From: an uncultured delta proteobacterium
GTDB taxonomy: Bacteria; Desulfobacterota; WTBG01; CAIYCZ01; CAIRTM01
Assembly (NCBI GenBank): GCA_903881505.1
Contig: CAIRTM010000031.1
Location: forward strand, 1-33,299
Reading direction: 5' to 3'
DNA length: 33,299 bases
Under the pieces are notes generated by a model. The model was not told the DNA's origin. It searched no databases and was given only the letters and a program-made list of their open reading frames with translations. Shown here piece after piece: positions 16,204 through 20,970 of the stretch. A program made the position numbers and the translations under genes. Positions within the stretch are counted from its first letter, which is position 1. Every line of letters starts with the position of its first letter.

Positions 16204-16334
16204 ATAATTTTTTTCCTTTTTGCAACTTGGCTTTTATAGTATAGTCCAGGCAGTACAGGGATTAAAAGCTGCACCGGATGCATATAATGCAGCACACGCG
16301 GCATGCGCAGTCAGCATCCTGCAGAAATACGGAC

Positions 16335-18542
16335 ATGAACACAGATTACGCATCACCGATCGAACAGCTTATCGACGCTGTTATACACTACCGCTCTACG
16401 GCTGCAAACGTTTCACCCCTTCTGCAGAGCATGGCCGAAGAGGTGCTCAGCTATAACTGCTCGGAAAAGCGTGTTGCACTGCTCGGCGGCGGCACCGGCC
16501 TTTCAACCATTGTGGGCGGCAACTCCCAGCTGGCACAGTGGCCGGAAAACCCGAACACCGGCCTGAAACAGACGTTCCCCCTGCTTGACGTTATCGTCTG
16601 TACAACCGACGACGGCCGCTCAACCGGCAAACTGCTCAAACAGCTGCCCATGATCGGTATCGGCGATATACGCAAACTCTGCCTGTCCATGATCGTTCCC
16701 GGGCGCCTGCAGGAAATCTATCGTCTCGGCATGAGCGAACGGCGCGATCTCGTACACCTGATACACGCTGTATTCAACCACCGCTTCAGCGGCGAAACGC
16801 CCGCAGCCCCTGCACTTGCAGACCCTCTGCTGACTGCGCCCGCACAGCTCCGCAGCGCGTGTCCAGAACCGCTGCAAAAACTGCTGCGCGAGCTTGGCTG
16901 CTTTCTCGCGAACGCCGGCGCAATGCCCTCTATCGCACCGCACGGCCACTGCCTGGGCAATCTGCTGCTGACCGCGTCGATATTCATGGCAGCAGGCGCA
17001 TGCTGCCAGCGTCCGCCTTCAATCACGGCCATCCGTCGCGGCATAGACCGCATAGCACGCGCAATCGGCGCGCCCCCCGGAAGCCTGCACCCGGCAACCG
17101 CCGCTCCCGGCCAGCTCGTATTCCGGTATGCCAACGGCGTTGAAGTGCACGGCCAGAGCAAAACATCCACTGCCCGGCGCGGATTCCCAATCGAGCGGGT
17201 ATCGATTGAATTTTACAACAAACCATCCATCAACACGCAGGCCATCCGAGCGCTGCGCGCTGCCGACCTGATTATACTGGCACCCGGCAGCCTGTATACA
17301 AGCAGCATTCCGGTACTGCTGGTTCCGGCCATCGCCGACGCGATCAGGGAAAACCGGCATGCCCTGAAAATTCTGGCCGCAAACTTCTGGGTTGAACAGG
17401 GGGAAACCGACATCACGCATGCTGACAAGCGCAGAGGGTTCCGTGTTTCTGAGCTGCTGGAAGCCTATGAGCGCACGGTTCCGGGCGGCCGCACAGGCCT
17501 GTTTCACTGTGTGCTGAGCGCCAATCTTGACCATATCCCCGGAACCATTCTTCGCAACTACGCATTTGAGGGCAAGCGGCCCCTTTATCTTGACCGTGCC
17601 CGCGTTGAAGACCTGGGGGTCATGCCGGTTGAATCCGGCATCTCGTCAGTCGAACACATGCAGGCGTCGGGTTTTATCCATCATGATCCTCAAAAATTCT
17701 CTCTGGCTGTGCGCACCCTTTTGTACGCTCACAGCCAGTCACCGGTCGGCCCGCCGAAGACGGCTCCGCCCCCCCTCCCCCATGCCTACCGACCCCCGAA
17801 GCAGCCTGCCGTGCAGCGCGGCAGGAACCTGCTGTGCGATTACTGGTCATCCGTCAATGCCGCGCTTGACTCATGCGTGTTCGAGCCGGAGAGCCTGCGC
17901 AAAACCCTGCTCGACCTTGTCTGGAAGAACCGCGACATCCGTGTGGAGCATGCTGCCTGCATAAAACGGGCGCTCGTGGTTTCCGGCCGAGACTGGGCCC
18001 GCAGCACCGCGTGGGACAATGTTCTCGGCTATTACGATCCACAGGACGACTGCTGTAAATTTCACAGCCAGCTGATGGACGACCCTGATCTTCTCAACAG
18101 CACCATGCTTATCGTTCTGGGTGAAGCGGTGCTTGGACGCTATATTGAAGAGCGTTCATGGAGTGCACCTGATAATGACTGCTGCTGGGGTTCGCGCTGC
18201 TTTGAAATCAAACTGCTGGAGCCATCACGGCGCAGCTGTCTGCTGAGCCCGCAGGACCTGCACGATTATCTGCTGCTGGCGCGCATGGTCTCCCATCCGC
18301 GTCAGGCCGGCCGGTACAGAATCACCCTGAATAATGATGACGGCTTCATTCCGCCCGGGCTGCTTTTCGGGCTGATGTATGCCTGGTATCTTGACAATGC
18401 CTGCGCGCCGGTCATGGAGAATGAAATGGCGGTCCTTCATCTGCCTGAATCCAGCCTGATCCCCCATCAGGTGCAGGAGTACAGGAGAAAAAAAGCGCTG
18501 GTTGATTTTTTCCGCACGAAGGTTTTTAAAAACAGTCCCTGA
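16335..18542 (+). CDS. YvcK/CofD-family protein with extra C-terminal domain
   Basis: The 735-residue protein has an N-terminal part matching the YvcK (gluconeogenesis factor)/CofD 2-phospholactate transferase superfamily. VALLGGGTGLSTIVGG (about residues 47-62) is the nucleotide-binding loop, followed by CTTDDGRSTGKL, IGIGDIRKLCLSM, GHCLGNLLLTA and ILAPGSLYTSSIPVLLVPAIADAI. A proline-rich linker follows at about residues 465-490. A C-terminal region of roughly 245 residues (Trp, Cys and charged-rich; LVWKNRDIRVEHAACIK, NNDDGFIPPGLLFG) resembles nothing I know. ATG 16335 is preferred, with GGA close upstream; 16278 would add 19 unconserved residues. Bacterial YvcK binds UDP-GlcNAc and affects central carbon metabolism and cell-wall growth. 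Usual YvcK proteins are about 320-450 residues, so this is an unusual fusion. Confidence 0.78.
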   Translation: MNTDYASPIEQLIDAVIHYRSTAANVSPLLQSMAEEVLSYNCSEKRVALLGGGTGLSTIVGGNSQLAQWPENPNTGLKQTFPLLDVIVCTTDDGRSTGKLLKQLPMIGIGDIRKLCLSMIVPGRLQEIYRLGMSERRDLVHLIHAVFNHRFSGETPAAPALADPLLTAPAQLRSACPEPLQKLLRELGCFLANAGAMPSIAPHGHCLGNLLLTASIFMAAGACCQRPPSITAIRRGIDRIARAIGAPPGSLHPATAAPGQLVFRYANGVEVHGQSKTSTARRGFPIERVSIEFYNKPSINTQAIRALRAADLIILAPGSLYTSSIPVLLVPAIADAIRENRHALKILAANFWVEQGETDITHADKRRGFRVSELLEAYERTVPGGRTGLFHCVLSANLDHIPGTILRNYAFEGKRPLYLDRARVEDLGVMPVESGISSVEHMQASGFIHHDPQKFSLAVRTLLYAHSQSPVGPPKTAPPPLPHAYRPPKQPAVQRGRNLLCDYWSSVNAALDSCVFEPESLRKTLLDLVWKNRDIRVEHAACIKRALVVSGRDWARSTAWDNVLGYYDPQDDCCKFHSQLMDDPDLLNSTMLIVLGEAVLGRYIEERSWSAPDNDCCWGSRCFEIKLLEPSRRSCLLSPQDLHDYLLLARMVSHPRQAGRYRITLNNDDGFIPPGLLFGLMYAWYLDNACAPVMENEMAVLHLPESSLIPHQVQEYRRKKALVDFFRTKVFKNSP

Positions 18543-18632: not shown

Positions 18633-19478
18633 CTAGTTTTTCCCTTCACGCGGCATGAATGCGCGGGCGGCCTCTATGAAATCGACCGGGCGTCCGGACA
18701 GCAACGCGCTGATGATATTGGAGGCAAAGGGGATTGCAAATGATTCAAAATAGCGCTGCAGGATGTCATCGCTCAGGACACTCGTTGATGCCACTGTGCC
18801 AGAGCCCCGGGCGCAGCACTCAAAGTGCGCGTGCGCACCGTGCGTATACTGTGCGGGAGATTCAGCTTCAGCAGGCTGCAATGACATATCAAGCGTAATG
18901 CCATAGCCCTTAGGCAGAATCGCACAGTAGGTGCGAAGCGCCGGCGCCTGAAGCAGGTCCACGGCAGCCGCGCAGCAGGGCGCGGCACCAGCCAGCCATA
19001 TCCGGCCGATACCACACTGTTTGCACAGAGGTATGCACACGGCTGCCCGGTAAAAAAGACATGCCGCGCACACAAGCGCGCTGCAGACTTGCTGGCGGGT
19101 CTGGGCAGCGGCATACAGACACAAGGCAGCGCGAAACGACGGCGCACCCACAACGACCGGCTGAAGCATATGCACATGCATGAACCGGCCGAGCCTATGT
19201 TTAAGCTCCCTGAGGCCGCTGTCGTATGCGCTCAGGCGCACCCGCTCAACCCCGGTATAGACCACGGCGGGCAGCAGCGCATCCGGTGCATGCGAAGCGC
19301 ACATGCGTTCAAGGGCAGCGGCATCGCATGGCATGGTCATGTCCAGCAGGGCAATGCCGGGAATTGACGCCATCTGCTCGCGCAGCCCGGAACCGACTGC
19401 ATGTTCGGGAAAATCCGACATCATGTCGGGTTTTTCCGCAAGCAGGCGCACGATGTCCTTACGGTTGAAATAGTTCAT
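18633..19478 (-). CDS. Unrecognised Cys-rich protein, third gene of the efp operon
   Basis: I do not recognise this 281-residue protein. It has 14 cysteines, with a dense run between residues 120 and 169. One group, C148-x3-C152-x2-C155, has the spacing of a radical-SAM cluster motif. It sits mid-protein with no other radical-SAM feature visible, so that reading is weak. A hydrophobic Ala/Leu/Cys-rich segment surrounds the group. The C-terminal region (DILQRYFESFAIPFASNIISALLSGRPVDFIEAARA) is helical. Its ATG (19478) overlaps the epmA stop as ATGA, so translation is probably coupled to epmA. It occupies the place where an EF-P modification partner such as EpmB might be expected. The coding call rests on length, the overlap and the operon position. 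Confidence 0.65.
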   Translation of the reverse strand: MNYFNRKDIVRLLAEKPDMMSDFPEHAVGSGLREQMASIPGIALLDMTMPCDAAALERMCASHAPDALLPAVVYTGVERVRLSAYDSGLRELKHRLGRFMHVHMLQPVVVGAPSFRAALCLYAAAQTRQQVCSALVCAACLFYRAAVCIPLCKQCGIGRIWLAGAAPCCAAAVDLLQAPALRTYCAILPKGYGITLDMSLQPAEAESPAQYTHGAHAHFECCARGSGTVASTSVLSDDILQRYFESFAIPFASNIISALLSGRPVDFIEAARAFMPREGKN

Positions 19479-20407
19479 GGGGACGGCTGCAAGTCTTCGG
19501 GAAACAAATGTACATCGCTGATATGCGAAGCGCCGGTGAGCGCCATAATCAGCCGGTCAAGGCCGAGAGCATTGCCGGCGCACGCGGGCATGCCGGATGC
19601 AACCGCCTGGAGAAACGGCTCATCGGCCTCATAGGGCGGCCTGCCCATGGCTGCCCGGCAGCGGGCGGCCTGATCAAAACGGACACGGTGCTCATCCGGA
19701 TCGGTAAGCTCGCTGTAGGCATTGCAGATTTCAAGGCCGTTCAAAAACAGCTCAAAGCGTTCGCAGATGCGAACGTTTTCTGTTGATATTCGTGAAAGCG
19801 CTGCAAGAGCGGCAGGGAAATCATGCACGATAAGGGCCGGCTGCGTCTGCAAATACGGTTCTACCGTGGCAGCCCAGTCCCTAAAATAGCGGTCCTCATC
19901 CCAATGCCTGGTCGGCTGCCAGCCGGCTGACCGCTCGTAGAGCTGATCGACCGTGATGCGCGGAACAGGAAAGCTGAGCCCTGCGGGCATCAGGCTGCAG
20001 CAGCCGGTCACATGCCGGAGCAGCTCTTCGGTTTCCTGCATCATCTCCCGGTAGCCGCTGCCTGTGCGGTACCATTCAAGCATCAGGAATTCCCGGGTGT
20101 GCTGCGCGCCCTGCTCGTCGGCCCTGAAAGCCGGACTGATCTGAAAGATGCGCGGGGCGCCACGGCATACGAGGCGTTTCATGTGCAGTTCCGGGGAGGT
20201 TGCCAGGAACTGGCCGTTGCCGGCAGGCAGCGCCTCGACATGCCGGTCAAGCCCGGGACAGTGCACCAGGAGGGGCGTGGTAACCTCGCAGTAACCGTTT
20301 GCACGGAAAAAAGCCCTGATCGCGTCCAGGATGCTGTCCCGCAGCTCAATCAGGGCAAGCACTCTGTTCGAAAAACAGGCCGGGCGCTGAGGGGCAGCCG
20401 GTTTCAT
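19475..20407 (-). CDS. epmA: EF-P lysyltransferase EpmA (PoxA/GenX)
   Basis: The enzyme activates lysine (in E. coli, (R)-beta-lysine) and attaches it to a conserved lysine of elongation factor P. At 310 residues it is a class II lysyl-tRNA-synthetase catalytic core without an anticodon-binding domain. TSPELHMKRLVCRG and RIFQISPAFRADE (motif 2), REFLMLEWYR, ELFLNGLEICNAYSEL, and GNALGLDRLIMAL (motif 3) are all present. The start codon at 20407 overlaps the efp stop as ATGA, and its own stop overlaps the start of the next gene the same way. The adjacency to efp makes the assignment very firm. EpmB, which makes beta-lysine, is not in the window. Confidence 0.94.
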   Translation of the reverse strand: MKPAAPQRPACFSNRVLALIELRDSILDAIRAFFRANGYCEVTTPLLVHCPGLDRHVEALPAGNGQFLATSPELHMKRLVCRGAPRIFQISPAFRADEQGAQHTREFLMLEWYRTGSGYREMMQETEELLRHVTGCCSLMPAGLSFPVPRITVDQLYERSAGWQPTRHWDEDRYFRDWAATVEPYLQTQPALIVHDFPAALAALSRISTENVRICERFELFLNGLEICNAYSELTDPDEHRVRFDQAARCRAAMGRPPYEADEPFLQAVASGMPACAGNALGLDRLIMALTGASHISDVHLFPEDLQPSP

Positions 20408-20970
20408 TTTTTAACGCGCTCGACGTACTCGCCGGTGCGTGTGTCGACCACGATCGCTTCACCGCTTGTGATAAACAGCGGCACGTTGACGCTGTAGCCC
20501 GTTGAAAGCCTTGCCGGTTTTGTCGCGCCGGAAACCGTATCGCCGCGCACGGCCGGTTCCGTTTCGATAATTTCAAGCTCGACGAAATTTGGCAAGGTAA
20601 TGGCGATCGGCATCCCATTATAAAAGTCGACTTCGACGTTCATGTTTTCGGTCATAAAGTTCAAGGCGTCGCCGACCTGGGCGGCGCTCAGTTCGACCTG
20701 CTCATAGGTGTTATTGTCCATAAACGTATAGGAGCCGCCCTGCTCATAGAGAAACACCATGTTACACTCGTCGATGCGGGCCTGTTCGCCGATTTTTTCA
20801 CCGGACTTGTAGGTTTTGTCCATCGTCTGTCCGGAAACAAGGTTCTTGAGACGGGTCCGGGTGAACGCCTGCCCCTTGCCGGGTTTCACGAACTGGCAGT
20901 CGACCACGATCCACGGGTCGCCGTCGATAATGATCTTGAGGTTTTTGCGAAGCGATGTAGTGTCAAGCAT
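20404..20970 (-). CDS. efp: Elongation factor P
   Basis: The 188-residue translation factor relieves ribosome stalling at polyproline stretches. A KOW-like N-terminal domain carries the modification loop FVKPGKGQAF; Lys32 in GKG is the residue expected to be modified by EpmA. Two OB domains follow, with LPNFVELEIIETEP and GDTVSGATKPARLSTG as the usual landmarks. The start at 20970 has AGGAG six bases upstream, a strong site, and a good promoter lies at 21015-21043. It is the first gene of a three-gene coupled operon with epmA and an unknown Cys-rich gene. Confidence 0.96.
   Translation of the reverse strand: MLDTTSLRKNLKIIIDGDPWIVVDCQFVKPGKGQAFTRTRLKNLVSGQTMDKTYKSGEKIGEQARIDECNMVFLYEQGGSYTFMDNNTYEQVELSAAQVGDALNFMTENMNVEVDFYNGMPIAITLPNFVELEIIETEPAVRGDTVSGATKPARLSTGYSVNVPLFITSGEAIVVDTRTGEYVERVKK

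Follow-up and report, generated by a model that had tools for sequence, protein, structure and literature searches.

Analysis of the window, a stretch of 33,299 nt from an uncultured delta proteobacterium, showed three overlapping genes on its minus strand: efp (20404-20970, 188 aa), epmA (19475-20407, 310 aa) and a third ORF, here called X (18633-19478, 281 aa). The efp product matched the elongation factor P (EF-P) families NF001810 and TIGR00038, carried all three EF-P domains in a Pfam search, and kept Lys32 in its loop, within KPGKGQAF. The epmA product, a homologue of EF-P-(R)-beta-lysine ligase, scored 287.7 bits against TIGR00462 in an NCBIfam search, where the cut-off is 286.9 bits. 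It retained the Ala equivalent to Ala298 of E. coli EpmA, a residue which we take to favour beta-lysine. As a preliminary description of this DNA had stated, two ATGA overlaps join the genes, at 20404-20407 (efp stop, epmA start) and 19475-19478 (epmA stop, X start), and a residue count gave the 14 cysteines reported there for X. Such overlaps alone are ordinary operon architecture. X closes the gene run in the window; its neighbour (16278-18542) lies on the opposite strand and encodes a 754-aa YvcK/CofD-like protein, whose best TIGR01826 stretch spans residues 222-479, with a long C-terminal extension beyond.

Comparison with the sister species (G001) gave 69% identity between X and its counterpart, and dN/dS values of 0.28 for X, 0.20 for epmA and 0.02 for efp. 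X is under purifying selection, and this ratio, together with the level of identity, indicates that X is a real gene.

Searches with X and its relatives found no family match in Pfam or NCBIfam. A profile of the nine X proteins did identify a larger group of unannotated relatives, family W, which is present in another 17 genomes of the phylum and is homologous to X along most of the sequence (E = 1e-35 to 1e-58). Searches with X and W against Pfam, NCBIfam and PDB sequences returned nothing, the best PHROGs matches were weak and single-member, and hhalign comparison of the family with E. coli TtcA was not significant (E = 0.2). AF2 models were obtained at pLDDT 81.5 and pTM 0.86 for X, and at pLDDT 91.8 and pTM 0.91 for W. 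In Foldseek searches, the best solved match to the X model was YcfA (E = 2.3e-6). The W model also matched YcfA first (E = 1.3e-9, TM 0.83 on target length), followed by MnmA, TtuA, GMP synthetase and LarE, among others. With YcfA at the top for both, the models and matches make the prediction that X and W are PP-loop/HUP-fold proteins well supported.

Family W is marked by the motifs AGRDS, CXGCH, GERxxH and KxNQ, plus a CXXC...C triad. AGRDS, GERxxH and KxNQ were present in 12/12 W sequences and in 0/9 X proteins, and these differences are well supported by the motif table. At the site of the missing PP-loop, where W has AGRDS, the alignment places TMPCD in X (residues 48-52; 19323-19337, minus strand). 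X thus combines the predicted HUP/Rossmann-like fold of the PP-loop superfamily with the absence of an SGGXDS-like motif. Since the PP-loop motif occurs in every W sequence and in no X, X is, by its sequence, a superfamily homologue and not a working PP-loop ATPase. The two groups were divided by a 100/100 branch split in a tree whose root is not known, and 'loss in X' assumes that the PP-loop is ancestral to the superfamily. The genomic settings also differed. At 23 of the 25 W loci (L045-L061 and L145-L152, e.g. L045:8176-9036), a gene for an ApgM-type phosphoglycerate mutase lay on the same strand within about 1 kb, the other two loci being on short or truncated contigs. A xylose-isomerase-like TIM-barrel gene was often present too, and efp was not a W neighbour. 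Comparison of X with W also brings to light a PP-loop family, W, that is undescribed and linked to ApgM.

Unlike the PP-loop motif, the CXXC...C triad was found in all 21 sequences (9 X and 12 W) of the motif table. In X it consists of C137-A-A-C140 (19059-19070, minus strand) and C221 (18816-18818, minus strand). A fourth cysteine, C152 in PLCK (19023-19025, minus strand), is invariant with these three across the nine X proteins, and is replaced by Ala in W, or by Ser in one. The single CX3CX2C group singled out in the preliminary description does exist, at C148/C152/C155, but it is not conserved: both C148 and C155 are confined to the window and its sister species, that is, to their own genus (2/9 X). 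Its proposed reading as an Fe-S or SAM site did not hold up, given this distribution and the predicted PP-loop/HUP fold, and a radical-SAM site in X was rejected on the same grounds. X had no conserved radical-SAM motif, and no match to EpmB or a radical-SAM family in Pfam or NCBIfam. We consider it very probable that X is a degenerate PP-loop protein with the CXXC...C triad kept.

Members of the X group were found in nine genomes: the genome of the window (G000), seven of the same family-level group (G001-G004 and G006-G008), and G010, a more distant member of the order. The reading frame was intact in 9/9. The order efp-epmA-X was kept in 9/9 recovered efp-epmA loci of the order, with junction gaps of -4 to +36 nt, and efp-epmA was the sole neighbour common to all nine X loci, while the remaining neighbours varied; these nine loci represent one related lineage and are not independent. 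Together with the dN/dS of X, the kept order takes the arrangement beyond chance. Two genomes without X (G005 and G009) also lacked efp, probably through an assembly gap, and were left out of the count. The earlier suggestion that homologues might track epmA is supported within this order, in every genome with a recovered efp-epmA locus, but not beyond it. EpmA exceeded the cut-off in 153/395 genomes of the phylum, whereas full X-type proteins occurred in one order only, and class relatives with efp (G011, G013, G014 and G015) lacked both the short EpmA and X. Most EpmA genomes of the phylum thus do without X, and X is not a general requirement for EpmA. Within the phylum, the EpmA proteins of X genomes scored at the low end of the range (about 272-293 bits; the highest scores reach 375), as if EpmA had diverged together with X. 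A two-peptide-pattern scan of genome contigs returned 13 loci, and those with a precisely named lineage were all of Desulfobacterota type.

Some individual loci had further features. In G010, a 605-aa ORF joining EpmA and X was considered as a fusion and rejected: the neighbouring frame has a DRL-stop at this point, resembling the canonical EpmA C-terminus, which the in-frame ORF lacks. The fusion is doubtful and was not counted as evidence; an indel or an error of assembly in this single MAG may account for it. Tungstate-type ABC genes (tupB-like, with the ATPase too in two cases) directly follow X in G006 (L013:10458-12183), G003 (L011:2197-3917) and G007 (L015:4674-5363), and no tup genes adjoin X in the window or in G001, G002 and G008. 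By eye, genes near X in G010 (L017:2834-5433), G003 (L011:111-1535) and G006 (L013:12793-13938) resemble those for peptide-maturation proteins of the PqqD/radical-SAM type and for a kinase-like protein.

EpmA is an adenylating enzyme and a paralogue of class-II synthetases. X, which has no PP-loop, is constantly found beside it. The simplest reading is that X serves as an accessory to EpmA. X would then be a PP-loop pseudoenzyme with a cysteine site, acting as a lineage-specific, non-ATPase accessory of EpmA/EF-P, which is our leading, though tentative, interpretation. By the coupling of the three genes, X is produced in step with EF-P and EpmA. With the PP-loop gone, it is unlikely to adenylate a substrate itself, and its cysteine site probably holds an Fe-S cluster or Zn, as suggested by the retention of the triad and the fourth invariant cysteine where AGRDS, GERxxH and KxNQ are missing. 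X could aid EF-P lysylation as a scaffold, or as a substrate-orienting or redox-sensing partner. Computation supplies the gene calls, their coupling and synteny, the fold prediction, the motif contrasts, the conserved cysteines and the KamA-type aminomutase outside the window; we infer the metal binding, the absence of ATPase activity and any interaction with EpmA or EF-P. Of the earlier proposal that the product might be a new partner in EF-P modification, the part that stands is that an unusual protein is fixed next to epmA at all recovered loci of its order; a functional role in this modification falls somewhat short of probable. Pathways of EF-P modification vary by lineage, and operon context has yielded new components before. 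If correct, the accessory reading would add to the beta-lysylation pathway a component particular to this lineage, and would make X an example of a bacterial PP-loop fold without its ATP motif in which the cysteine site is kept.

The main rival to the accessory reading is that X is an operon passenger, with a function of its own (e.g. in tRNA, small-molecule, or tungstate/molybdate-linked sulfur chemistry), sharing the efp-epmA transcript for expression only. This would fit the tupB/tupC-like genes right after X in G003, G006 and G007, the position of the W relatives beside ApgM and the TIM-barrel gene rather than efp, and the absence of X from most EpmA genomes. The tup genes, however, are missing beside X in the four other genomes named above, and efp-epmA alone is kept as neighbour in 9/9 loci. 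We regard the passenger explanation as doubtful, but a serious contender.

A different kind of link to EpmA would be ATP-independent sulfur transfer, in which the cysteine site of X uses an adenylate from EpmA, or from another partner, in place of the lost PP-loop. In its most specific form, X would carry an Fe-S or persulfide site that works on an intermediate activated by EpmA, yielding EF-P with a modified, e.g. sulfur-containing, beta-lysyl group. We know of no thiolated EF-P modification. The triad resembles that of CXXC-C [4Fe-4S] PP-loop sulfurtransferases, and the motif lost from X corresponds to the adenylation motif, which holds S55 and D59 in TtuA (PMC7138817), while it is EpmA that adenylates. 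Against this, GERxxH and KxNQ, probably active-site motifs of W, are absent too, and an Fe-S cluster on X is only putative. Sulfur transfer of this kind therefore seems unlikely, and its specific form on EF-P more unlikely still. If true, the latter would be a new EF-P modification, and a case of a PP-loop protein whose adenylation step is outsourced to a class-II synthetase paralogue.

X might instead be a decaying gene of little function, retained through its operon position. All three catalytic-looking motifs are missing, the own-genus branch of X is long (2.2 changes per column), and X has changed more quickly than either epmA or efp, a pattern compatible with relaxed constraint. The dN/dS of X is, however, close to that of epmA, the frames are intact throughout, and about 30 invariant positions, along with the four invariant cysteines, are kept across very divergent copies. 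Decay is accordingly an improbable account of X.

The remaining explanation concerns EpmB, the radical-SAM lysine 2,3-aminomutase that is the expected partner of EpmA. Its reported absence is true of the window but not of the genome to the same extent, since a KamA-family radical-SAM aminomutase gene of EpmB-like size lies outside the window (G000:C91:23044-23991), where it overlaps a following LOG-like gene (by eye) via ATGA (L102:3553-5513). The genome encodes two KamA-family proteins, on C91 (382 aa) and C94 (436 aa). Both fell below the EpmB cut-off, as did the EpmA-adjacent KamA proteins of the phylum. In a KamA tree, the C94 protein was placed within a long AblA-like clade (support 99/98). 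Its C91 counterpart fell outside this clade, together with short relatives encoded in the other X genomes, nearer to the EpmA-adjacent short KamA proteins, with moderate backbone support. The C91 protein also carries CAVHCRFC and the lysine motif GGGGKVP. Together with its tree position, these motifs make a source of beta-lysine without X plausible. That X replaces EpmB or supplies lysine or beta-lysine, as the lack of EpmB in the window and the co-translation of X with epmA had suggested, is largely refuted and most improbable, since the X-bearing relatives also encode KamA-family proteins, short ones included, X shares neither fold nor motif with EpmB, and no evidence in support of lysine supply was found.

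The accessory reading can be set beside several known systems of the same fold. YcfA (PDB 9kq6/9kq7/9kq9), the top solved fold match for X and W, is a PP-loop ATPase of 6-thioguanine biosynthesis (PMC6225789). Sequence identity is about 16%, however, the PP-loop motif is absent from X, and X neighbours efp-epmA with no ycf operon. The sulfurtransferases TtuA, NcsA and TtcA, and LarE of the [4Fe-4S] type, share with X a PP-loop-type fold and a CXXC...C triad. Three cysteines bind the [4Fe-4S] cluster in T. maritima TtuA and LarE (PMC7138817, PMC9283937); T. maritima LarE does so via CXXC-C, with a fourth cysteine close by (PMC9283937), and some LarE proteins resemble X in this respect also. The CXXC and distal cysteine of this group are present in X as C137, C140 and C221. 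X differs from these enzymes in lacking the SGGXDS-like motif and detectable sequence similarity, as in the comparison with TtcA, and its own cluster is putative. For an accessory protein, a precedent is Ctu2/Ncs2, a diverged PP-loop-family subunit thought to assist its catalytic partner Ctu1/Ncs6 (PMC10067955). Ctu2 has lost the cluster cysteines that X keeps, and Ctu1 and Ctu2 are paralogues of each other, whereas EpmA and X are not.
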